Shown here in pieces: positions 31,996 through 44,311 of a stretch of DNA of 64,000 nt. The stretch's first letter is position 1. Every line of letters begins with the position of its first letter. A program made the position numbers and the translations under genes. Origin of the DNA: Actinoplanes lobatus (GTDB taxonomy: Bacteria; Actinomycetota; Actinomycetes; Mycobacteriales; Micromonosporaceae); assembly GCF_014205215.1 (NCBI RefSeq), contig NZ_JACHNC010000001.1, positions 811,001 through 875,000 on the forward strand. Direction: 5' to 3'. The notes under the pieces were generated by a model. The model ran no database searches and was not told where the DNA came from. It saw only the letters and a program-made list of their open reading frames with translations.

Positions 31996-33897
31996 GTGAG
32001 GATCGAACCGCGACAGCACCTGCTGGAGACGTGGAAAGCGACGGTCCAGAGTTCCTGGCGCGACGGCGCCTGGCACTGGGGCGGCCGGGACGGATCGAAT
32101 TCGATCAGTGATGCCGAGCAGTTGCTCTGCATCCTCCTGCCGGCGACCCAGGTGGGCCCGTTCGGGCTGGACCGGCCGAACGCCACGGCCGACGCCATGC
32201 TGGAAGCGCTCCGCCCGCTCGGCGACGAGAAGACCATCCCGCTGAACCTGGTGCGGATCGCCACGGAGTATTTCACCCGGTATGTGGACAACGACCGGCC
32301 GATATTCTCCGGTGGCAGCTACTACAAGCCCGACGACGGCGCGAAGCTGACCGAGGTCCAGCAGACCCGCGACATCGTGGACTCGTTCGCCATCTCGGTC
32401 ACCCTCTCCCTGGCCACCATCGGTTTCGTCCGGATCTTCCGGCAGTCGGTCACCCGGATGGGGCTGCGCCGCGAGCTGCGGCAGCTGGAGCGGCTGGCCA
32501 GCACCCGGCTCACCGCGGCGATGGTCGGCCTGCTGCGCAGCTTCTCCACACACGTCTTCGAGGCCGACGACGACCCGGGGCAGATCCTGCTGCAGACCGT
32601 CAACAAGGCGGGCCTGCCGTCCAAGACGGTGGTCAACCAGTTCCGCTCGGTGCTCCAGGAGACCATCGCGTCGTTCAACGAGGTGCTGATCGGGTCGGGC
32701 CAGACCGAGAACCTGGAGAGCGCCAACGCCCTGTTCGAGTGCGGTTGGTCCTGGGGCATCGTCAAGGACGCCCCGGCCGTCCCCCTGGAGTACAAATCGT
32801 CCGGCCGGGAGAAGGAGAGCACCTCCGCCGGCGCCCCGGACGAGCCGGCGGAGGAGATCGGCCCGCAGCCCGACGGGGTGGCGGAGAACAAGCCGTACCT
32901 CTACTTCACCGTGGTGGCGGTCGACGCCATCGAGGACCTCTTCTCCGAACGGACCCGGGTGCTGGGCCTGCTCAACGAGGAGCAGCAGCGTCTCTCCCGT
33001 GCCCTCCAGCTGCGCTGGGATCTCACCCTCACCTACTGGGCCACGGTCGCCACCTTCGGCGGCGGCCCGGTGTGGCCGCTGGAGGACCCGCCCTGGCAGA
33101 CCACCGACGGCCTGCGCAGCGAGTACTACACCCTCCTGGTGACCTCGATCGTCGTCAAGGACCTGGTCCGTAAGCGCGGCTCGGACACCCGCCTGGCCCG
33201 GATCGGCTCGGTCCTGTCCGACCTGGCCAACGAGGCCCGGGTGACCCGCAAGCACCGGCCCGGCGACTCCGGGGTCAAGCTGCACGCCCCCGGCCTCCGG
33301 GTCTCCCTGGAGGGCAGTCTCGAGGACTCGCCGGACGACAAGGCCAACGCGGTCTGGTTCGTCGGCGAGTTCGCCTCGCTGCTGCTCCAGCGGTGCATCG
33401 CGATCGCCGGCCTGCTGAGCGACGTGGAGGAGCGGGCCGTGCTCCTGCGCCTCGCCGACCGGGTGTGGGACCATCTCGCCCGCCGCCGCCTCATCGAGAC
33501 CGAACACCGGAAGTTGTGGGACCAGCCGGCGCTGATCTTCGACGATCTGCCGGAGTACGAAACCCCCTCCTGGTACTACACCGAACGGGTGGTCGCCGGC
33601 CTGGTGAGCGCGGCGAACCTGCTGAGCGAGGAGCCGCTCGTCAACGACCGGCTCGTGGTCCGCGCCTTCGACCTGCTCTACGAAGCCGAGCACCTGTACG
33701 ACATGGAGCTCATGCGGGGCTCCGCCGATGCCAGCCTCGAGGTGATGGACGTCTTGACCGAGATCCGGGCCAAACTCGAGCGGGCCCGTGCCATCGCCCG
33801 TACCCGGCCGGGGGCCGCCTCCGCCCTGGTGAACTGGGTCCTGATGGAACTCGACGGCCTCGAGGCCGTCCGGCACAGCGAGAGCACGGCGATCTGA
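31996..33897 (+). CDS. SCO2524 family protein
   Basis: 633 residues from the GTG at 31996 (VRIEPRQHLLETW). I recognise the family by its opening, especially WHWGGRDGSNSISDAEQLLC, then IATEYFTRYVD, FECGWSWGIVKDAP, LGLLNEEQQRLSRALQLRWD and the late ETPSWYYTERVV. It is known from streptomycetes and other filamentous actinomycetes and always sits in a cluster with the SCO2523, SCO2522 and SCO2521 families. It has no signal peptide, no clear enzyme motif and no membrane span; it looks like a large helical scaffold. Its TGA overlaps the next ATG. A weak promoter (TTTGGA-N16-TACCTT) ends at 31907. Function unknown. Confidence 0.8.
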   Translation: MRIEPRQHLLETWKATVQSSWRDGAWHWGGRDGSNSISDAEQLLCILLPATQVGPFGLDRPNATADAMLEALRPLGDEKTIPLNLVRIATEYFTRYVDNDRPIFSGGSYYKPDDGAKLTEVQQTRDIVDSFAISVTLSLATIGFVRIFRQSVTRMGLRRELRQLERLASTRLTAAMVGLLRSFSTHVFEADDDPGQILLQTVNKAGLPSKTVVNQFRSVLQETIASFNEVLIGSGQTENLESANALFECGWSWGIVKDAPAVPLEYKSSGREKESTSAGAPDEPAEEIGPQPDGVAENKPYLYFTVVAVDAIEDLFSERTRVLGLLNEEQQRLSRALQLRWDLTLTYWATVATFGGGPVWPLEDPPWQTTDGLRSEYYTLLVTSIVVKDLVRKRGSDTRLARIGSVLSDLANEARVTRKHRPGDSGVKLHAPGLRVSLEGSLEDSPDDKANAVWFVGEFASLLLQRCIAIAGLLSDVEERAVLLRLADRVWDHLARRRLIETEHRKLWDQPALIFDDLPEYETPSWYYTERVVAGLVSAANLLSEEPLVNDRLVVRAFDLLYEAEHLYDMELMRGSADASLEVMDVLTEIRAKLERARAIARTRPGAASALVNWVLMELDGLEAVRHSESTAI

Positions 33898-34814
33898 TGT
33901 TCGTTTTCGCCGCGTCCGACAAAGGCGGCACCGGTCGTTCGGTGACCAGCAGCAACCTGCTGTACCGCAGCGCCCTCCAGGGGAACGACGTCTGTTACCT
34001 CGACTTCGACTTCGGCTCGCCGACGGCCGGCGCCATCTTCGGCATCGAGCGCGCGGAGAACGGCACGACCAGCGGTTCCGGCATGCACCGGTTCCTGCTC
34101 CAGGAGGTCTATCAACCGGAGCGGGTCGACGTCTGGACCGCCACCGACCGGCGCGGGATCCGGGACGGGCAGGCCAACACCGGCCGCCTGGTCCTGCTGC
34201 CCGGTGACGTGGGCGGCGGCGACTTCCCGGACCGCGCCGACCTGGTGGGCCGGTGCCTCGAACTGTTCCTGCGGCTCAACGAGGAGTTCAGCCTCTGCAT
34301 GGTGGACCTGAGCGCGGGCCGCAACCTGGCCGTCGAGATGGTGCTCAAGGTGACCGCCATGCCCGAGATGCAGAAGATCACCAGTCGCTGGCTGGTGTAC
34401 CACCGGTGGACCCGGCAGCACGTGGTGGCGGCGGGCGGGCTGGTGAACGGTCCACGCGGGCTGCTCACGATCGCCGAGAAGTCCGGGCACGACCGGCAGC
34501 AGTTCGCCAACAACCTGCGCTACGTGCGTACCGCGGTGATCGATCCGGCGCCGTCGACCCAGAGCGGCCTCACCGCGAAACAGGGCATTTGGCTCGATGA
34601 GTGCAATCGACGGCTCACTCGATTGGCTGGAGAGCACCAAGTCGGCAAAAATCTATTACTAGGGTCCGTACCACTCGATCCCATGCTCCAATGGCAAGAA
34701 CAGTTGATCACTGACAAAGACGTGGTGAGCGGCGTCGCGAACCAGGAGACCCGGAACGCGTTCGACTTGCTGGCGAGGCGCCTCGTCGACGACTCCTCTT
34801 GGGAGACCCTATGA
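33897..34814 (+). CDS. SCO2523 family variant P-loop protein (ParA/MinD-like)
   Basis: 305 residues from the ATG that overlaps the previous stop (TGATG). The N-terminus ASDKGGTGRSVTSSNLL is a deviant Walker A of ParA/MinD proteins, but the lysine of GKS/GKT is arginine (KGGTGRS, residues 9-15). CYLDFDFGSPTAG takes the place of the switch I/Walker A' aspartate region, and FSLCMVDLSAGRNLAVEMV is the Walker B/switch II area. The remaining signalling lysine (KGG) is kept. NTP binding or hydrolysis is probably altered. Its TGA overlaps the next ATG, so three proteins are made stoichiometrically. Function unknown. Confidence 0.85.
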   Translation: MFVFAASDKGGTGRSVTSSNLLYRSALQGNDVCYLDFDFGSPTAGAIFGIERAENGTTSGSGMHRFLLQEVYQPERVDVWTATDRRGIRDGQANTGRLVLLPGDVGGGDFPDRADLVGRCLELFLRLNEEFSLCMVDLSAGRNLAVEMVLKVTAMPEMQKITSRWLVYHRWTRQHVVAAGGLVNGPRGLLTIAEKSGHDRQQFANNLRYVRTAVIDPAPSTQSGLTAKQGIWLDECNRRLTRLAGEHQVGKNLLLGSVPLDPMLQWQEQLITDKDVVSGVANQETRNAFDLLARRLVDDSSWETL

Positions 34815-35785
34815 CGGTCGCGCTGCACCGCATGGATTACCGGGAGCAGGCGACGGAGTATGTCGCCCCCTCCGTCGGCCTGTCGCACGTCTCACTGGAG
34901 CTCGGCCACCTCTACATGGAGGACCTGCAGGCCCGGGAGGGTGAGAGCAGGCTGGCGGACTACTTCGTGAGTGTGTACCCCTGGGTCAAGGCCATCGAGT
35001 CGATGGGCCGCTGGGGCACCACCTCGCCACGGATCAGCACCTGCTTTCTGATCGACGACTACTTCAGCCGCCTCGACGAGCCGGGCGTCATCATCAAGAA
35101 GGTCGTCGACGCGGCCGCGAAGAGCGGACTGTCCATCGACTACATCGCCCGTGAGTCGAGCTGTGCCGAGTTCGGCGACACCCGGCTGGCCCAGCTGGTG
35201 TTCGACCAGATCGTCCCGGAGCCGCTGCGGGGCGCCAACGGTGGCCGGCCCACCGTCAAGGACAGCGGCTGGCTGTCGAACGGGCGGCGCTCCCCCAACA
35301 CCGCGGCGGCCCCGGCGATGGCCGCGGAACCGTGGCAGAGCCCGGAGCAGACCGCGGCGAACCGGCACTCCGTCTTCATGGACGTGGAGATCCGCGACGA
35401 CGAGCTGTGGTCCTGCTCGTTCCTGGCGTCGGTGTGGCAACTGCTCCGGCTGGGCCTGCTCCGGCCGGAGGAGAAGCAGCTCACCAAGCCGGTCCGGGTC
35501 GACGGTGACTATCCGAGCGACTGGTCCGACCTGCCGCCGGTGATCAAGCTGACCGACACGAAGAACTCGTTCTGCGCGTACCGGAGCTTCTCGATCCTGC
35601 CGACCCGGTTCATGGAGATCGAAATGGCGGCGCGCACCGTGCTGCACCAGGTCCGGGTCGATCCCCTGATCATGGAGGACCTGGAGACCCGGGCCGCGCC
35701 GGAGAGCATCGAGCTGCCGCCGACCATCCTGGACCGGATCGACTACGCCTTCATCAACGACTGGACCCCGGCCAGCGGTCGCTGA
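34811..35785 (+). CDS. SCO2522 family protein
   Basis: 324 residues from the ATG overlapping the P-loop gene stop (ATGA). Family features are GLSHVSLELGHLYMEDL at the N-terminus, PRISTCFLIDDYFSR, IDYIARESSCAEF, and RHSVFMDVEIRDDELWSCSF followed by ASVWQLLRLGLLR. There is no signal peptide or membrane helix and I can name no catalytic motif, although the CFLIDDYF segment with paired aspartates may be a binding site. The last 32 bases overlap, tail to tail, the 3' end of the STAND gene on the other strand. Confidence 0.8.
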   Translation: MTVALHRMDYREQATEYVAPSVGLSHVSLELGHLYMEDLQAREGESRLADYFVSVYPWVKAIESMGRWGTTSPRISTCFLIDDYFSRLDEPGVIIKKVVDAAAKSGLSIDYIARESSCAEFGDTRLAQLVFDQIVPEPLRGANGGRPTVKDSGWLSNGRRSPNTAAAPAMAAEPWQSPEQTAANRHSVFMDVEIRDDELWSCSFLASVWQLLRLGLLRPEEKQLTKPVRVDGDYPSDWSDLPPVIKLTDTKNSFCAYRSFSILPTRFMEIEMAARTVLHQVRVDPLIMEDLETRAAPESIELPPTILDRIDYAFINDWTPASGR

Positions 35786-38700
35786 GCCGCAGCAACGCGT
35801 CGGCCGTCTTACGGACGGCGAAGTCCTCGTCCTCGGTGCAGCCGATCAGGATGTCGCGGACCTCGTCGAGGTGGGCGATCGGCGCCAGCATCTCCACGGC
35901 CGCGCGCCGGGCCTCATGCGCCTCGGCGGTGCGGGCGTGGCTCAGCAGCACCCGGCGGACGTCGTCGTCGGCGATCCAGTGCGCCAGCGCCCGGATCAGG
36001 ACCGGACGGATCACCGGGTCGGCGCCGGTGAGGCGGGCCAGCAGGTCGGTACGGGTCCCGTCCTCGCGCAGCGCCGCGGCGGCACGGGCGGCCGCGGCGA
36101 CCACCGCCGGGTCGGTGTCCACCCGGACCCGGTCGCGCAGCACCTCGCCGGCCGCCTTGACGTCGCCGCCGGAGCCGAGGATCTCCACGGCCGCCGCGCG
36201 GATCTCCGGGTTCGGGTCGGCGCCGGCGCGTTCGGCGATCACGGTCCAGAGACGGCCGGCGTCGGCGCGGTCCAGCACAGCGGCCCGGGCGGCGGCCGCG
36301 AACACCTCACCCACGCTGTCGTTGCTCGTCCGGTCCAGCAGCAGGGCCGGCAGGTCGATGTCGGGCGGACAGTCGGCGATCAGCACCCGCAGCGCCTCGA
36401 GCCGGATCTCCGGATGGCCGTGGCCGGTCAGCTCCAGCAGCCGGCGGGCGTCGGCCAGCTCCAGGATCCGGCCGCACAGGCCACGCAGCGCCGCGGTCCG
36501 CGTCTCGGTGTCGGCGTCGTGCACCGAGGCGGTGATCAGCGCCCGGGTCGCGGTGGGGCCCCGGTCGCCGGCCAGCGACTCGACCGCGGCCCGCCGGACC
36601 GACGGTGTCGGATCCTGCCCGGCGACCCGGGCCAGCACGGCCTCCCGGGACGGGGCGGCCGGGAGCGCGGCCAGCCCGCTCACGGCGGCCAGCCGTACGG
36701 CCGGCTCGGTGTCCGAGGTCGCCGCCCCGGTGAGGATCTCCTCGGTCCGCGGATAGGCCCGGTAGGTGGCCCCGAGCACCCGGACGAGGGCCACCCGGAG
36801 CACCTCGTCCGGTTCGGCGGCCAGCCGGGCCACCAGCGCCTGCCAGGACCGCTCCCCCGGCCGGTTCCCGCGCCCGGCCAGCGCCACGGCCGCCGCGCGG
36901 ACGACCGCCCCGTCCGGATCGGTCTCGATCCGTTCGAGCAGCCGCGCCTCCGGGCCGCTGCGGGCCAGCAGGCGCACCGCCGCCCGGCGGACCCCGGCCG
37001 CCGGGTCGGTCCGCATCCGCCCCAGCAGCAGCTCACGAACCGGCCCGTCGCTGCCGGCCCGGGGCAGCAGGATCCCGGCCGCCGCCTCCACCACCTCGGG
37101 CGCCGTGTCGTCCCGGCAGGCGTCCACCAGGTCCTGCGCCACCGCGACGGACAGCTGCCGGGGGCGGGCCAGGACGCGCAGCGCGCCCGCCCGGACGGCC
37201 GGGTGCGGGTCGCTGCGGCGGCACTCCAGCAGGATCTCCTCGATCCCGGGCTCGGCCCGCAGCCGCTCACCGAGGATCTGCACGGCGGAGAGCCGGACCG
37301 TGGAGAAGCCGTCGCGCCGCCGCGGGTCCGGTGAGACCGCCCGGACCAGCACGGCGCGGGCCTCCGGATAGACGGCGGCCAGCGGCGCGAGCGCCTGCAC
37401 GGACGCGAGCCGGACCACGGCGCGCGCGTCATCGGCGGCGCGGACCAGCGGGTCGAGCGCGAGCCGGCCCTCGTCGGCGCGCTCCTGCCGGACCGCCTGG
37501 TGGGCCATCTCGCCGAGGCCGGCGACCGCGGCGCAGACCACCCGTACGTCGTCGGCCTCGCCGATCCGGGCCTTGAAGATCTCGTCGAAGTGGTCGTCGG
37601 GCCGGGCCAGGACGGCCGCGATCCGGGCGGCGGAGGCGGCCGCCGGGTTGCCGACGATCTCCACCCCGGCGGTGCGGTACCAGTCGAGGTAGGCCTCGCG
37701 GTCCGGCCAGTTCGGCCCGATCGCCTCGATCGCCGGGATGAACTCGTCGACCAGCAGATCCGCGTAGTCGGGGCCGGGCAGGTCCCGGTCCGGGGTGGCG
37801 GCGCAGTACTCGATGATCCGGACCACCTCGCGCAGCGCCAGCTCGGCGGCGTGCCGGGCGTCGGCGATCTGGCGGACCCCGGCCAGGCACTGCACGGCCA
37901 GCGCGACGTTCCACGGCGGGCCGGGGCGCGGCGCCCGGCCGGACGGGCCGGGGTACTCCCACCACTCCGGGTTGACCTCGGTGATCAGCATCTCGACCAG
38001 CTCCGCCGCGAAACCCGCCGACAGCTGGCCGGCGACCAGGCGCAGGGTCTCCCGCCAGGCAGGGTCGGCCCAGTTCTCCCGGAACACCGCCCGGATCTCG
38101 TCGAACCGGGACCCGCCGGGGCTGAACCGTTCGATGATCGCCCAGGCGCAGTAGAACTCCTGGAAGGTGCGGTGCACGAACCGGTAGTCGGCCCGGCCGT
38201 ACCGGCCCAGCACGTAGCTGCGCCGGCGGAGCTGGTCGATGGCCTGACGGGCGAACTCGCCGGCCTCCGCCCAGCCGAGGCCGTGCCGTTCCAGGTGCTG
38301 GGTGAAGATCCGCCGCAGCTGGTCGCCGCCGACGTGGTCACGGTGCCCCAGCCGCCCGGACATCATGTCGAAGGCGAGGCCGCGCAGCAGCTCGTGTTTG
38401 ACCTCGGCGTCCAGGCGCTGCGAGCCGGCCGGCGCGTCCACCATCCGGCTGTCGTCCCAGCTGTCCACCAGGGTGACGGCGACCTGCTCGTACAGCCGCC
38501 AGCGTTGTTTCGGCAGCATCCGGTGCCGGCCGATCACGGCGAGGATGCTGAGCAGCATCGGGTTGCCGGCCAGCTCGGTGAGCTCCGGCGAGCGGCGGAT
38601 GGTGCCGATCACCACCTCCCGGCGGACCGTCGCGTCGGCGCCCGGCGCCTCCGGCAGCGCCTCGAACCAGCGGCGCAGGAACTCGGCGGTCTGCTCCGGC

Positions 38701-39944
38701 ACGAACCGTTGCAGGGTGTGGTGAGCGAACCCGGCGGCGGCCAGGGCACGCCTGTTGTACTCCGCGGGCCGGGTGGTGACCACCACCCGCGCCTCCGGGA
38801 ACGTCTCCGCGAACGTGGCGATCTGACCGGCGGTCTCCTCACGGATCCGCCGTTCCAGGATCTCGTCCAGGCCGTCGAAGACGACCACGGCCGGGTCGCC
38901 GCGGGCCAGGTGCAGGGACAGGCCTTCGGGCTCCTCCTGGTAGCCGTCGGTGGCGGCGCGGTGCGCCAGATACTCCCGCAGGTTGCGGCACTGCCCGGCG
39001 GCCACGGCCGCGGCATAGGAGCGCAATTCCACGAGTACGGGCAGATGCCCGGCCAGTGGCGCCAGCCGCTCGTCGGCGTGCGCCCGGGCCAGCGCCAGGG
39101 TCAGGTAGCGGACCACCGCCGACTTGCCCGCCCCGGGATCGCCGACCAGCACGAACCGGCGCTGTGCCCGCTCGCAGAGCACGTCGAAGACCGGCTGCCC
39201 GGGCCAGGACAGCGGGAGCGCGTCCCGGTCCAGCCGCTCGGCCTCGCCGGCGCCCTCACCCCACGGCGCCCGGGTCAGCTGCGGCGGATGGTCGGCGCGG
39301 GCGAACGGCTCGACGAAGACGTCGAACAACTGCGTTCCCAGGTACGGCGACGACTGCTGGGCCAGGTTCATCAGGTCGAGCCCGCCGTACTGCTGGCGGA
39401 GACGCTCGAAGTAGTGGGCGGTCACCGCGGCGCTCAGGCCGGGGGCCACCGGGACGGCCGGCGCCGCGGTGACACCCCGGGACCGCTGCTCCAGCAGTTT
39501 GTGGACGGCGGCGTAGACGAGCAGCCCGAGGTCGGCCGGCGCGTCGAAGAAGCTGCACAGGTGCTCACGCTGGAGCACGTCACGCAACGCGTCGACCTGG
39601 GCCGCCTTCGGACCACGGTCGACGAACCGCACCGGCCAGGCGGCCTGCTCGCTGAGCAGGAAGATGAGGCAGTCCTTGCCACTGGCGACGGCGTGCTCGT
39701 ACTCCAGGTGGGTGATCGACTTGGACTGCTTGGGTGGGGTGTAGCCGTACCGCCAGGCGAAGATGCCGATGTAGATGTCGCAGGACTCGACGTCGTCGAG
39801 ACAGCGCGCGAGCGGGGCGGTGGCGCCCGCCACGTACTCCTCCATGGTCTTGAACCGGAGGCCGATGAGGCCGAGCGCATGGCGGACGGCCTCGCGACAC
39901 TCCTTCAGATCCTCGAAGGTCGCGGAGATGTAGGCCTCGCTCAA
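35754..39944 (-). CDS. STAND NTPase: DUF4062-NACHT-HEAT repeat protein
   Basis: 1396 residues. Residues 1-150 are a DUF4062 domain (AYISATFEDLKECREAV, DIYIGIFAWRYGYTP, ITHLEYEHA). A NACHT-type ATPase follows with Walker A GDPGAGKS (268-275), Walker B AVVVFDGLDEI (about 352-362), sensor-like VVVTTRPAEY, and the helical domain to about 690. The C-terminal half is HEAT/Armadillo-like repeats (units such as PAVRLAAVSGLAALP, PSVRRAAVESLAGD). Such proteins are nucleotide-driven signal switches, several with proven phage-defence roles, in which repeats sense and N-terminal domains signal. The start is TTG at 39944 with GGGGAG upstream. It follows the oxidase gene by 27 bases. Confidence 0.9.
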   Translation of the reverse strand: MSEAYISATFEDLKECREAVRHALGLIGLRFKTMEEYVAGATAPLARCLDDVESCDIYIGIFAWRYGYTPPKQSKSITHLEYEHAVASGKDCLIFLLSEQAAWPVRFVDRGPKAAQVDALRDVLQREHLCSFFDAPADLGLLVYAAVHKLLEQRSRGVTAAPAVPVAPGLSAAVTAHYFERLRQQYGGLDLMNLAQQSSPYLGTQLFDVFVEPFARADHPPQLTRAPWGEGAGEAERLDRDALPLSWPGQPVFDVLCERAQRRFVLVGDPGAGKSAVVRYLTLALARAHADERLAPLAGHLPVLVELRSYAAAVAAGQCRNLREYLAHRAATDGYQEEPEGLSLHLARGDPAVVVFDGLDEILERRIREETAGQIATFAETFPEARVVVTTRPAEYNRRALAAAGFAHHTLQRFVPEQTAEFLRRWFEALPEAPGADATVRREVVIGTIRRSPELTELAGNPMLLSILAVIGRHRMLPKQRWRLYEQVAVTLVDSWDDSRMVDAPAGSQRLDAEVKHELLRGLAFDMMSGRLGHRDHVGGDQLRRIFTQHLERHGLGWAEAGEFARQAIDQLRRRSYVLGRYGRADYRFVHRTFQEFYCAWAIIERFSPGGSRFDEIRAVFRENWADPAWRETLRLVAGQLSAGFAAELVEMLITEVNPEWWEYPGPSGRAPRPGPPWNVALAVQCLAGVRQIADARHAAELALREVVRIIEYCAATPDRDLPGPDYADLLVDEFIPAIEAIGPNWPDREAYLDWYRTAGVEIVGNPAAASAARIAAVLARPDDHFDEIFKARIGEADDVRVVCAAVAGLGEMAHQAVRQERADEGRLALDPLVRAADDARAVVRLASVQALAPLAAVYPEARAVLVRAVSPDPRRRDGFSTVRLSAVQILGERLRAEPGIEEILLECRRSDPHPAVRAGALRVLARPRQLSVAVAQDLVDACRDDTAPEVVEAAAGILLPRAGSDGPVRELLLGRMRTDPAAGVRRAAVRLLARSGPEARLLERIETDPDGAVVRAAAVALAGRGNRPGERSWQALVARLAAEPDEVLRVALVRVLGATYRAYPRTEEILTGAATSDTEPAVRLAAVSGLAALPAAPSREAVLARVAGQDPTPSVRRAAVESLAGDRGPTATRALITASVHDADTETRTAALRGLCGRILELADARRLLELTGHGHPEIRLEALRVLIADCPPDIDLPALLLDRTSNDSVGEVFAAAARAAVLDRADAGRLWTVIAERAGADPNPEIRAAAVEILGSGGDVKAAGEVLRDRVRVDTDPAVVAAAARAAAALREDGTRTDLLARLTGADPVIRPVLIRALAHWIADDDVRRVLLSHARTAEAHEARRAAVEMLAPIAHLDEVRDILIGCTEDEDFAVRKTADALLRLSDRWPGSSR

Positions 39945-39971
39945 GCGAATCTCCCCACGCCGCGTAGCGAA

Positions 39972-40937
39972 TCAATGTAGTCGCGTGAGGCAAGCCTCCA
40001 CCATGGACGCCACGTCTCGTCCACAGCCCCAGGAGACGGTCACGCCGCCACCGCCGTGACCGTAGTTGTGGATCACCACCTGGCCGTCCCGGGTGGTGGT
40101 CTCCAGCCGGATCCGGTCGCGGACCGGCCGGCGCCCGGAGCGGACGCCGATCACCGGCGCGTCCCGCAGCAGCGGCTCGATGTCGGCACACCGGCGGCGG
40201 ATCCGCTCGGCCGCGACGGCCTCCGGCAGCGCCACCCCGCCGGGCGCCTCGATGGTGCTGCCGAGCACGACCGTGTCGCCGTGCGGGATGTAGTAGGTGA
40301 GCTCCGGGCCCTCGCCGTCCTCGGCGAAGAACGTGTCGATGCCGGGATTGCGGACCACCACCACGAGGCCGCGCACCGGAACCAGGCCGGGGTCGCCGGC
40401 CAGCCGGCGGGCGCCGCTGCCGCTGCAGTTCACGATCACCGGAGCCCGGCCGGACAGCTCGCGCAGCGACCGCAGCTCGCGCTGCTCCACCCGGACACCC
40501 TCGGCCCGCAGCTCGGCCATCAGATACTCCGAGTAGACCGGCATGTCGACCACCGCCGTGGTGTAGCGCCAGGCGCTGCGGTACTCCGGCCAGGCCCACT
40601 CGTCGCAACGCTCCAGGTCCCCGGTGAGGTGCAGCCAGGGATGCGGATCGGCGACGCCCCGGGCGACCTCGACGCCATGCACCATGGTGACTCCGGCGGT
40701 GCGCGCCGCGGCCAGCTCACGGAAGGCGGTCAGGCCCTCCCCGGCCCAGCGCTCGGCCTCCGGGTGATCGACCAGGAACGGCCCCCACATGGCGCCGGCG
40801 GCGCAGGAATCCGTGGCGGGCGGCAGCCGCCGCGCCACGACACTCACCGCGAGACCCCGCCGGGCCAGGCACAGTGCGCTGGTCAAACCGCAGACGCCCG
40901 CACCGACCACAATGGCATCGATGTTGGTAACGGTCAC
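39972..40937 (-). CDS. FAD-dependent oxidoreductase, D-amino-acid oxidase family
   Basis: 321 residues. The N-terminal dinucleotide-binding motif is VVGAGVCGLTSALCLARRG. The substrate region includes YYIPHGDTVVLGS, and the C-terminal D-amino-acid oxidase signature reads VIHNYGHGGGGVTVSWGC with the conserved VRSGRRPVRDRIRLE before it. Such enzymes oxidise neutral D-amino acids to 2-oxo acids, ammonia and H2O2, or act on related amines and glycine. No peroxisome-like signal or secretion signal is present. GTG start; same strand as the STAND gene with a 27-base gap, so probably co-transcribed. The role inside the island is unknown. Confidence 0.88.
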   Translation of the reverse strand: MTVTNIDAIVVGAGVCGLTSALCLARRGLAVSVVARRLPPATDSCAAGAMWGPFLVDHPEAERWAGEGLTAFRELAAARTAGVTMVHGVEVARGVADPHPWLHLTGDLERCDEWAWPEYRSAWRYTTAVVDMPVYSEYLMAELRAEGVRVEQRELRSLRELSGRAPVIVNCSGSGARRLAGDPGLVPVRGLVVVVRNPGIDTFFAEDGEGPELTYYIPHGDTVVLGSTIEAPGGVALPEAVAAERIRRRCADIEPLLRDAPVIGVRSGRRPVRDRIRLETTTRDGQVVIHNYGHGGGGVTVSWGCGRDVASMVEACLTRLH

Positions 40938-41107
40938 CCCCCGACACTAACGGCTTACTCGGCGGCGTCGCACGGGCTGAAATTTCGGCACCCGGCCGCA
41001 CCTGAGCCGACCTCGGCTGACGAGCCCTTATCCTTCCGGCGCGGGGTGATTGCCGGGTCTCGCCACGGAACGCCACGATGGAATCAGGAAACGGCCGCGG
41101 AGGATTC

Positions 41108-42049
41108 ATGTTGGCTTTCGGAGAGGTCCAGACCGGCCTCCTGCAGAACTCCGTCGCCCTCCCCCGGCGCGCCACCGAGCACCTGCTCAGCAACGAGGCC
41201 GACGAGCGGGTCCGCTCGGTCGAGCGGCCCATCGCCCGGTCCGTCTCACCGGACCGGCTCGAGGGCGTGGACTGCCGCCTGCCGACCACTTCCGGACGTC
41301 AGACCAGAGCCATCGGTACGGTCGTGTCGCGCGCCGTCGTGGTGGCCGGCCACGTCGCGCAGGGTTCGGCGTACGCCCGGGTGGCGCCCGCCCGCACCAC
41401 GATCCGGCTGCCGTGGTCGCACTACCTGGCCAGTCCCGGTCATCTGGAGGCGATCGGCAAGCTGCACCAGGCCGACCTGGAGCAGGGTGTGCTCACCGGC
41501 GCGCGGACCACCGAGACTCTGGAGCTGAGCGCGATCGCGGCCCGGATGCTCGACACGGTCCAGCGGTCCCGGGTGATCGACCACGCCCCGCCATTGCGTA
41601 CCCCGCGGGTCCGGCTGCGCTGGACCGCCCTGCTGGACCGGACCGTGGAACGGCCGGGCGGCACGTTCACGCTGGTCTCCGAGGACGTCCGCTCGCTCCG
41701 GCTGCGGGTGCCGACCACCGACCTGGGCGCCGTGGTCGCCCTCTGCGAGGACCTGGCCGTACACGACTGGCTGCTCACCACGGTGCTGTCGGTCCTGGAC
41801 GCGACGCTGGCCCACGACCACAGCCGGGCCGAGCGGGTGAGCCGGTTGCAGCCGCTGCTGGAGCACCTGCCGCATCTGTGGATGCCGGGCGCGCACGTGC
41901 CCGAGGAGTTGCTGCCGATCTGGTCGGCGCTGGATCAGCGGCCGGGCTTCACCCGGCAGTGGGACGGGGCGATGGCCCGGGTCCGGGACCAGATCACGAT
42001 CGGCGCGCTGGATCTGTTGCAGGGCGCCTCCACTAAACCGGCACGGTGA
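41108..42049 (+). CDS. SCO2521 family protein
   Basis: 313 residues from the ATG at 41108 (GGAGGA six bases upstream). Family landmarks are MLAFGEVQTGLLQNSVALP, VRSVERPIARSVSPDRLEGVDC, AVVVAGHVAQGSAYARV, LPWSHYLASPGHLEAIG and the C-terminal HLWMPGAHVPEELLPIW and RPGFTRQWDGAM. No membrane helix or known enzyme motif is visible. In Streptomyces its relative lies directly after the SCO2522 gene, as I recall. Here 5.3 kb with two oppositely oriented genes intervene. It converges on the SLOG gene with a 17-base overlap. Function unknown. Confidence 0.8.
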   Translation: MLAFGEVQTGLLQNSVALPRRATEHLLSNEADERVRSVERPIARSVSPDRLEGVDCRLPTTSGRQTRAIGTVVSRAVVVAGHVAQGSAYARVAPARTTIRLPWSHYLASPGHLEAIGKLHQADLEQGVLTGARTTETLELSAIAARMLDTVQRSRVIDHAPPLRTPRVRLRWTALLDRTVERPGGTFTLVSEDVRSLRLRVPTTDLGAVVALCEDLAVHDWLLTTVLSVLDATLAHDHSRAERVSRLQPLLEHLPHLWMPGAHVPEELLPIWSALDQRPGFTRQWDGAMARVRDQITIGALDLLQGASTKPAR

Positions 42050-42506
42050 GGCGTTCCGCTCCCTCGGGCCAGACCCGGACGACCCGGCGGCCCAGCGCCT
42101 TGGCCCACTCCACCGTCTCGGCCGTGCCGCCGCGGCCGCCGGCCGGATCACCGTCCCAGACCGCGACCAGGATGTCGCTGCGCTCCACCACCTCGCGGCT
42201 GGCCGCCTCGTAGGCCGCCTCGGGCGGGCCGGCCACCTCGAGCCGGGTCACCCGGCGGGCCTGGCGCAGCAGGTGGGACGGTGGCGCGGCGGGTGGCGAC
42301 GCCGCGGCGGGCACCGGCAGCACCACCTCGAAGGTGCCCCGGCAGGCCTGGACGGCCCGGGCGAAGATCTGGTCGGAGCCCTCGGCCAGGCAGGTGACCC
42401 CGTGCACCCGTGGATAGCCGGACAGCAGCTGGACCAGCTCCCGGAGGATGAGCCGGTGGGTGGCCGGCCGCAACCGGATGTGCCCGGTGACGCCGATCGT
42501 CGTCAT
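42033..42506 (-). CDS. SLOG-type Rossmann-fold protein, putative nucleotide-ligand sensor
   Basis: 157 residues from the ATG at 42504-42506. A Rossmannoid fold with features of the SLOG (Smf/LOG/YtoQ-like) group: IGVTGHIRL at the N-terminus, GVTCLAEGSDQIFARAV, then VVERSDILVAVWDGDPAGGRGGTAETVEWA near the end. The acid-rich and Gly-rich loops are where nucleotides bind in relatives. SLOG domains are proposed to bind or cleave nucleotide-derived signals in bacterial conflict systems. It lies 17 bases after the RyR-channel gene stop, so the two are an operon. Confidence 0.72.
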   Translation of the reverse strand: MTTIGVTGHIRLRPATHRLILRELVQLLSGYPRVHGVTCLAEGSDQIFARAVQACRGTFEVVLPVPAAASPPAAPPSHLLRQARRVTRLEVAGPPEAAYEAASREVVERSDILVAVWDGDPAGGRGGTAETVEWAKALGRRVVRVWPEGAERLTVPV

Positions 42507-42523
42507 GCCCGCTCCCGTGGGGA

Positions 42524-44311
42524 TCACGCCGGGTTCAGCGCCCGGCTGACTCCAGTGTCCGTCAGCCGGACCACCCGGAACCCGGCGTCCGCCAGGATCT
42601 GCGGAATCTCCAGCACCGCGGCGCGACATTTGGCACGTCCCTCCGGCCCGAGTTCCTCCCAGTCGACCAGATCGGGCGTCTGCCGCAGTGCGCTGTCCCG
42701 CTGTGCGCCGCGCACCCAGCCGTTGCCGCGGGCCGCCTCCGCCCAGCGCTGCTGCTCCCGGCGGGCCAGCAGCTCGACCTCGGCCTCGGTGAAACAGAAG
42801 TCGTCGTCACCGCCGTCGGCCGGCACCACCGCGCACCCGGCCATGTGGAGCTTGATCCCGAAGTCGCCGGCCTGTTGCCGGTTCGACCGGCGCAGCTCCT
42901 CGTCCAGCTCGGACCAGGGGCACAGCGCCGGGCCGCTGCCCAGCCGCTCACCCCGCAGCAGGCTGGCCTCGACGAACCGCTCGTGGATGAGCCTGCCCAG
43001 CCGCTCGGACAGGTCCTCGGCGATCAGCGCCGGATCGCAGCCGGCCGCCACCGCCGAGAAGAGCCGGACCCGGCCGTCGATCGGGTCGAGCAGCGGCTCC
43101 TCCCGCTGGTCCCGGCTGAACGCCTCGGTGATCGCGGCCAGCGCGTCCACCACCACGATGATGTCGCCGGAGACCCGGCGCCACAGGCGGTGCTCACGCA
43201 GCGCCAGCTCCAGCCCCACACGGTCGTCGGCGAAACAGAGGAAGACCCGGTCGTAGCCGGCCCGGCCGGGGTCGTCGAGCAGGGCGGAGACGTCGGTCTC
43301 GTACGCCGTCACCCGGCACCCGTCCTGGACCACCCCGCCCCGCTCGGCGAACCGGTCCCGCACTCGGATCGCGTCCGGCGCCACCAGGTCCACGACGACC
43401 CGCTGCGCCGGACTCGACCGGCGCAGCCGCCAGTGCCGGGCGATCTCCACGATCAGCGCGCGGACCAGCGAGGAGTCGCCGGCCACCAGCAGCCGGGGTG
43501 CCCGGTCCGGGCGGTTCGGCAGCGGCCGCTGGTCCAGCAGGACGTGCACCGCCAACTGGTCCAGGTGGAAGAAGTCCAGCCGCTGGCCGGGCGTGTGCGG
43601 CACACCGAGCCGCCGGGCCTGGAGGGTGAGCGCCCAGTCCGCCTCGTGGATCTGGGCGTAGACGGCGAGGTCGTTGCGCGGGGCGGCCATCCGGGCGGCG
43701 GCCGCGGCGATCTCCAGGTTGGCCGCGCTCGTCTCGGCGCAGGCGTACAGCGTCGCGGCCCGGGGGACGCCGGCGCCACGCAGCACGTCCGGGTCGCGGG
43801 CGTCGCCGTTGACCCCGAGCAGCCCGCGCCGGCGCAACTCCAGCGGGCCGATCGGCTGCGTACGAACCACCACGACGCGATGGCCGCTCAGGTGCAGGCG
43901 GTGCGCCAGCGTCCGGGCGACCGAGGAGTCGCCGCAGACCACCACGTGCCGGCGGGAGCGGCGGGCCCGCAGGCGGCGCATCTCGCTGGCCAGCAGGACC
44001 CGGGCGGCCTCGGCGAAGGCGTACAGCGTGACGATCGGGGCCACGAACCGGGCCACCTGCAGCGCCGGCGGGAACTCGGTGCCGCCCTCCAGCGGATCGG
44101 ATCCCAGGACGAACAGCTGCAACGTGCCGTACAGCAGGTTCAGCGGGTCACGGTCGGTGACACCTTGCGAAGCGAGGTACTGGTCCAGGCCGATGAAACC
44201 GAGAACCAGCGCCAGCACCCCGGCCAGGGCGAACACGGCCCGCGTCACGGTGACGGCGGGCTGCCCCTGGTCGTCGGCGAGGGACAGCGGGGTGCGGGGA
44301 AAGGTGGCCAT
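42524..44311 (-). CDS. Channel-like 2TM protein with two TrkA-N domains and a C-terminal RyR domain
   Basis: 595 residues. Two membrane helices (about 22-43 and 85-107) flank a pore-helix-like LNLLYGTLQLFVLG (58-71), but no TVGYG potassium filter. Then come two tandem Rossmann TrkA-N/RCK-type domains (HVVVCGDSSVARTLAHRL at 122; RLLVAGDSSLVRALIVEI at 273). The C-terminal region (about 435-582) reads PWSELDEELRRSNRQQA, then FTEAEVELLARREQQRWAEA, GWVRGAQRD and DLVDWEEL, which match the RyR domain. Such proteins occur in proposed bacterial nucleotide-signalling and conflict systems, where ligand binding would open a membrane pore. The downstream SLOG gene is a likely partner. Confidence 0.85.
   Translation of the reverse strand: MATFPRTPLSLADDQGQPAVTVTRAVFALAGVLALVLGFIGLDQYLASQGVTDRDPLNLLYGTLQLFVLGSDPLEGGTEFPPALQVARFVAPIVTLYAFAEAARVLLASEMRRLRARRSRRHVVVCGDSSVARTLAHRLHLSGHRVVVVRTQPIGPLELRRRGLLGVNGDARDPDVLRGAGVPRAATLYACAETSAANLEIAAAAARMAAPRNDLAVYAQIHEADWALTLQARRLGVPHTPGQRLDFFHLDQLAVHVLLDQRPLPNRPDRAPRLLVAGDSSLVRALIVEIARHWRLRRSSPAQRVVVDLVAPDAIRVRDRFAERGGVVQDGCRVTAYETDVSALLDDPGRAGYDRVFLCFADDRVGLELALREHRLWRRVSGDIIVVVDALAAITEAFSRDQREEPLLDPIDGRVRLFSAVAAGCDPALIAEDLSERLGRLIHERFVEASLLRGERLGSGPALCPWSELDEELRRSNRQQAGDFGIKLHMAGCAVVPADGGDDDFCFTEAEVELLARREQQRWAEAARGNGWVRGAQRDSALRQTPDLVDWEELGPEGRAKCRAAVLEIPQILADAGFRVVRLTDTGVSRALNPA

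Follow-up and report, generated by a model that had tools for sequence, protein, structure and literature searches.

Why are members of the conserved actinobacterial families SCO2521 to SCO2524 separated in Actinoplanes lobatus by two genes on the opposite strand, one of them for an immune-like STAND NTPase? We addressed this question in a stretch of 64,000 nucleotides, hereafter the window (NCBI RefSeq assembly GCF_014205215.1, contig NZ_JACHNC010000001.1, positions 811,001 to 875,000), in which the locus spans positions 31996 to 42049. Many actinobacteria conserve the four families, none of which has been given a functional name. A first-pass annotation had named these families and read the arrangement as an ancestral four-gene operon that received an insertion. 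That account should give way to a modular one, in which the output and enzyme partners of the core can be exchanged and the STAND form represents one such variant. We consider it close to an even bet that the locus represents a modular actinobacterial stress or immune system, built from a conserved SCO2521-2524 core with exchangeable partners. The replacement of a membrane protein by an NLR with a putative TIR-like NADase on the same core offers a concrete functional hypothesis.

Searches with hidden Markov models placed all four core proteins above the curated NCBIfam cut-offs, bearing out the identities first proposed. The SCO2524-family gene (31996..33897, plus strand; 633 residues; NF040567, 886.9 bits against a cut-off of 300) starts with GTG, and its stop codon ends at 33897, the first base of the ATG of the SCO2523-family gene (33897..34814, plus strand; 305 residues; NF040564, 473 against 200), which encodes a variant P-loop protein (MinD/ParA-like, KGGTGRS) and overlaps it by that one base. 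The SCO2522-family gene (34811..35785, plus strand; 324 residues; NF040566, 378.8 bits against 200), whose product is predicted to adopt a class I aminoacyl-tRNA synthetase catalytic fold, begins with an ATG and overlaps SCO2523 by four bases (ATGA). These three genes are contiguous, and the SCO2521-family gene (41078..42049, plus strand; 323 residues; NF040565, 407.5 against 150) begins 5.3 kb beyond the end of SCO2522 on the same strand, with an in-frame ATG at 41108 that fits the family start better than position 41078. The contiguous order 2524-2523-2522-2521 is broken by the STAND gene (35754..39944, minus strand; 1396 residues; DUF4062-NACHT-HEAT), a proposed exchangeable output module, and by DAO (39972..40937, minus strand; 321 residues; PF01266, 123.7 bits), an amino-acid/amine oxidase-like flavoprotein dependent on flavin adenine dinucleotide. 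The 3' ends of STAND and SCO2522 overlap by 32 bases, DAO and STAND are 27 bases apart and likely form one operon, and DAO diverges from SCO2521 across an intergenic region (40938..41077, strand unassigned) that is a candidate shared promoter region. The order, overlaps, strands and 5.3-kb gap are as the first-pass annotation had described them. The match to the glycine oxidase ThiO fell short of the NCBIfam cut-off (56.8 bits against 250.8). Named relatives among the matches are A. flavus (98%) and A. couchii (87%) for SCO2522 and A. campanulatus (99%) for the first 240 residues of the STAND protein.

The domain make-up of the STAND protein, also anticipated in the first annotation, was confirmed with Pfam: DUF4062 (PF13271, 73 bits; gathering score 24.7), NACHT (PF05729, 44.3 bits) and HEAT_2 (PF13646, 128.7 bits, in seven stretches), a combination that supports an immune-like character. 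The Walker A (GDPGAGKS) and Walker B (VFDGLDEI) motifs are intact, with their motif residues invariant in 14 aligned rows, and Glu81 and Glu35 of DUF4062 are invariant in 37 of 37 aligned rows. Glu81 is probably the catalytic glutamate, its position being deduced from the TIR pattern.

The neighbourhoods of the core were surveyed in 111 stretches. SCO2521 is present in 71 of 150 genomes at 77 places and SCO2522 in 37 of 394 sampled from the class, the window's own genome being included in both counts; the stretches comprise 76 of the 77 SCO2521 places (fragment G043 C82 was omitted) and 35 of the 37 for SCO2522, as two were covered already. They are partly dependent, since several genomes contribute two or three stretches and some genes are counted twice owing to the overlap of L035 with L085. 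Gene calling was scripted, and the genes were assigned to families by means of profiles derived from the surveyed loci; 67 of the stretches are from the window's family (Micromonosporaceae, judging by the genus). Conservation of the SCO2521-2524 families is also reflected in 1492 homologous proteins out of 7995 scored candidates. Because the same families recur together across these stretches, the gene order is more than chance. Outside the window's family, most stretches carry 2524-2523-2522-2521 in a single co-directional run, frequently preceded by a GNAT acetyltransferase and an SCO2525 methyltransferase and followed by the protein family F5; within it, SCO2521 is mostly separate, with DAO divergent beside it. 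Upstream of the 112 SCO2521 genes lies a co-directional SCO2522 in 52 cases, a divergent DAO in 45 and a divergent STAND in seven. Since DAO lies divergent beside SCO2521 in so many of these cases, mostly in loci without STAND, it belongs to the usual SCO2521 neighbourhood.

The arrangement of the window is not confined to its lineage. STAND and DAO occupy the same place in a locus of another genus (L033), and STAND alone is found there in two loci of other genera (L032 and L039). In a search of 90 genomes, in which at most six candidates were scored per genome and the window's genus alone represented its family, all nine STAND hits above 1800 bits lay at SCO2521 loci, the next scoring 883 bits over 55% of the profile. 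A contiguous four-gene ancestor, as the first-pass annotation had supposed, is plausible given the contiguity of most loci outside the window's family, but an insertion in the window's lineage alone finds no support, given these loci, the frequency of DAO and the grouping of the STAND-bearing cores in one clade. The annotation had stated that an ancestral STAND-DAO pair at this place in close relatives would refute its reading, and by that standard the reading is refuted in part.

The observed pattern of partners is one of exclusion and apparent exchange. STAND occurs in 15 of the 111 stretches (14 full length and one, L063, truncated), F5 in 78, both in none and neither in 18 (Fisher p 7.6e-10, ancestry uncorrected). 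F5, some 320 residues long, has N-terminal segments that look hydrophobic by eye and a weak DUF6879 match (one of two scanned members above the gathering score), and is predicted to be a membrane protein with a DUF6879-like part. Searched at E 1e-10, F5 was not found in 11 of the 15 STAND genomes, among them the window genome, which also has no SCO2525-family protein over the cut-off of 240 (best 44.8 bits). In an unrooted tree of concatenated SCO2524, SCO2523 and SCO2522, reduced by hand from 104 rows to 53, one clade (support 100/99) unites the 14 STAND rows with L057, which carries neither partner, and L047, which carries F5 and is nested within the clade (support 100/98). The fifteenth STAND locus, L054, lay outside the sampling of this tree and falls beside the STAND rows in the SCO2521 tree. 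The nearest row outside the clade, L038, carries F5 instead, and exchange therefore fits better than interruption; STAND looks like an exchanged module. The SCO2521 of L047 and L055 clusters with the window's clade (98), their F5 clusters with F5 from further loci of Actinoplanes (98), and their DAO is separate from window-type DAO in a tree whose deep forks are weak, indicating that a STAND-type core has been combined with a foreign F5 and DAO and that the partners changed while the core remained constant. On the simplest account, whose direction is presumed because the tree is unrooted, F5 gave way to STAND at the origin of the clade, and an F5-DAO pair later replaced STAND-DAO in L047 and L055. 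The window and these two loci constitute a natural swap, and the swap pattern links SCO2525, with its reported influence on growth in S. coelicolor, to immune-type modules.

Other NLR-like proteins adjoin the core in loci where F5 is missing (L067, L070, L073, L107 and L100). In L067, L070 and L073, which lie in an F5-less clade, two large Walker A/P-loop proteins encoded on opposite strands adjoin SCO2524; the pair from L067, the one scanned among the three, consists of a WD40 protein, with NACHT not among the matches listed (25 of 63 families), and an NA-iREase3 protein with a NACHT match of 25.0 bits, below the cut-off of 26.7. A TIR_2-NTPase in the F5-less locus L107 (5792-8173) lies 63 bases before SCO2524 and partially matches the PADLOC model for ThsB (E 2e-11), and a WD40 protein in L100 overlaps SCO2522 by four bases and has an N-terminal part that resembles a STAND Walker B by eye. 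When these five loci, chosen after inspection, are added to the STAND loci, NLR-like proteins are present in 20 stretches, F5 in 78, both in none and neither in 13 (Fisher 1e-13, ancestry uncorrected). A gene termed ENO45, which from its sequence would belong to the enolase superfamily, was found in L066, L067, L070 and L073. Three further loci where F5 is missing carry, convergent with SCO2521, a family with no Pfam match and two C-terminal membrane helices predicted by eye (L081 12928-13779, L139 7708-8529 and L144 11530-12390), possibly a third kind of membrane partner.

The chromosomal site is similarly variable. The miaA-DUF349 side of the site is common to the window, L047 and L055; the stretch of L055 extends to miaB and that of L047 ends earlier. 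The region after the DUF349 gene was inspected in 18 hand-picked genomes of the 67 of the genus, one of which (L158) was too short to judge. In L155 and L161 the DUF349 gene lies directly beside miaB, with about 83 and 60 bases between the matches, and these empty sites could mark the borders of what comes and goes. DAO is the only member of the set at the site in L153, only SCO2524 and SCO2523 are present in L156, and L160 has 1.5 kb between DUF349 and miaB with no assigned gene. In nine genomes (L145, L147-L152, L157 and L162) the only assigned gene between DUF349 and miaB is F29, a homologue of which in L042 matches an enzyme dependent on pyridoxal phosphate. The whole set or parts of it are gained and lost at this miaA-miaB site. 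In the window, SCO2521 is followed on the minus strand by a small protein with no Pfam match, SLOG-like by eye (42033-42527), which overlaps a TrkA_N-RyR protein (42524-44311); this pair looks like a separate nucleotide-signalling unit and is present at the site without the SCO252x set in L146, L154 and L159.

How might such a system work? The families, gene orders, recurrence, swap pattern and conserved motifs are shown by the data; the physical coupling, the signal, the trigger, the NADase activity and the outcome are what we infer. The core, composed of a variant MinD-like P-loop protein, a protein with the predicted synthetase fold and two further proteins, would work with exchangeable partner genes, the output position being taken by F5 in most sampled loci and by STAND in the window's lineage. 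In the STAND protein, the HEAT repeats may serve as sensor, NACHT as a switch driven by ATP that causes oligomerization, and DUF4062 as a TIR-like NADase. DAO, the SCO2525-type methyltransferases and the GNAT acetyltransferases would also take part, probably by modifying a small molecule of the amine or amino-acid type, and the core may sense or process such a signal. Disturbance of the core by phage infection or another stress could then release STAND and deplete nicotinamide adenine dinucleotide (NAD+), leading to cell arrest or death. An immune nature of the system would be a fair bet. We advance only tentatively the full proposal that SCO2521-2524 form the conserved centre of an actinobacterial system for immunity or stress that has yet to be described, in which the synthetase-fold and MinD-like proteins generate or guard a signal and interchangeable outputs act on it, namely a DUF6879-like membrane protein in most sampled lineages and, in some, NLR-like proteins, among them the STAND with its putative TIR-like NADase.

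Several observations weigh against a modular immune system. Ancestry correction leaves one to four independent pairs (means 2.6 and 3.6), all in the expected direction and none opposite, and with so few independent STAND/F5 events the exclusivity is not significant once ancestry is counted (sign test, median p 0.25 and 0.125). Moreover, 13 of the 111 stretches have neither F5 nor a recognized NLR-like protein, and F5 occurs elsewhere in the genome in four of the 15 STAND genomes (G033, G011, G026 and G061). For the seven window proteins among nine scanned against PADLOC-DB 2.0.0, the best match was partial, with E 5e-4, and searches at E 1e-5 found SCO2522 homologues neither on plasmids, with the L118 protein as query, nor on phages, with the window protein as query. 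A physical coupling of the core to STAND would have to be supposed. Among human DUF4062-NACHT proteins, a 2026 preprint (PMC13174449) describes purified NWD1, NWD2 and NPHP3 as lacking NADase activity and TEP1 as active; as three of the four are inactive, NADase activity of the window STAND cannot be assumed. SCO2525 is described as necessary for normal growth of S. coelicolor in PMC11472566, and another paper gives it a morphogenetic role, both of which also fit a function in development.

The best-surviving alternative holds that the core proteins synthesize or modify a small molecule resembling an amino acid, with STAND as a guard of this pathway or a mere regulatory ATPase. It draws on the synthetase fold predicted for SCO2522 and on the enzymatic partners, namely the SCO2525 methyltransferases (the one member tested scored 301.6 bits for NF040568 and also matched the NNMT/PNMT/TEMT Pfam family), the GNATs, DAO and the presumed enolase ENO45. 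It also draws on stand-alone F5-2525-DAO cassettes, which have no core within the fetched stretch (L163 8363-11612, L164 2779-5716 and L165 7236-10126); these come from three of the four genomes with F5 elsewhere, in each of which the core locus carries STAND (truncated in G061), and in the fourth (L166) F5 stands alone close to a contig end. The cassettes count in favour of the modular reading as well. However, SCO2522 shares 6-12% identity with class I aminoacyl-tRNA synthetases (ArgRS, CysRS, MetRS and YadB) among the matches listed, has no KMSKS among its near-invariant residues, unlike these enzymes, and leaves the HIGH motif ambiguous, as its ELGH hardly varies yet is situated inside strand 1 of the model. 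Together with the recurrence of NLR-like proteins where F5 is missing, this makes the pathway account rather unlikely. The AlphaFold 2 model of SCO2521 (mean predicted local distance difference test score 94.4) gave no clear match in a fold search, and the C-terminal part of SCO2524 resembles YacP so weakly in a profile comparison (E 0.046) that we do not trust the match.

It is slightly less probable again that the set regulates growth or development in mycelial actinobacteria and that its STAND form acts there, and not in immunity, as a signalling ATPase. The reported roles of SCO2525 and the reported control of its operon by HupS would suit such a function, as would the occurrence of SCO2522 in 37 of 394 class genomes and its lack of plasmid or phage matches. 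The patchy presence of SCO2521 (71 of 150 genomes) and the partial remnants at the miaA-miaB site in L153 and L156 argue against it, as do the TIR-like and NACHT partners, which are of a kind usual in conflict systems. Least credible is the insertion of an unrelated immune cassette into the operon in this lineage, its proximity functionally meaningless, an improbable account that can point to the contiguity of the four genes in most loci outside the window's family, the opposite strand of STAND and DAO and the higher overall guanine-plus-cytosine (GC) content of the STAND gene (0.77-0.79 between 36 and 38 kb, compared with 0.66-0.72 over the preceding 6 kb, with GC at third codon positions of the STAND-DAO region resembling its neighbours), but is already largely contradicted by the same arrangement in L033, DAO beside SCO2521 without STAND, the nine of nine STAND hits at the core, the absence of flanking direct repeats, which were looked for, and the nested return to F5 in L047 and L055.

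The modular system can finally be compared with known ones. In S. coelicolor, sco2521-sco2526 is named as an operon among genes controlled solely by HupS in PMC11472566, and it contains the same four core families as the window; the window genome, in contrast, has no SCO2525 over the cut-off and no F5, carries STAND and DAO, and has SCO2521 split from SCO2522. SCO2525 adjoins SCO2524 in 10 of the 10 surveyed loci of the family group f33. In the literature searched, three papers name any of SCO2521 to SCO2525, the third of them mentioning SCO2525 alongside mutagenesis work (Gehring et al. 2004), and no mention of the SCO252x family names or of DUF6879 was found. Bacterial NACHT proteins such as bNACHT25 (PMC12169576) share with the window STAND a NACHT domain with conserved Walker A and B motifs, and the window protein would be set apart by a DUF4062 N-terminus, seven HEAT_2 stretches and an accompanying operon. 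Similar in its putative effector is the antiphage system Swarozyc, whose assembly is triggered by the phage portal and for which DUF4062 is described as a TIR-like NADase (PMC13174449). The window STAND likewise has DUF4062, and the catalytic glutamate of Swarozyc probably corresponds to Glu81. The Klebsiella protein of Swarozyc is described with helical stalks and another auxiliary domain, whereas the window STAND joins its DUF4062 to NACHT and HEAT repeats and is accompanied by a conserved operon.

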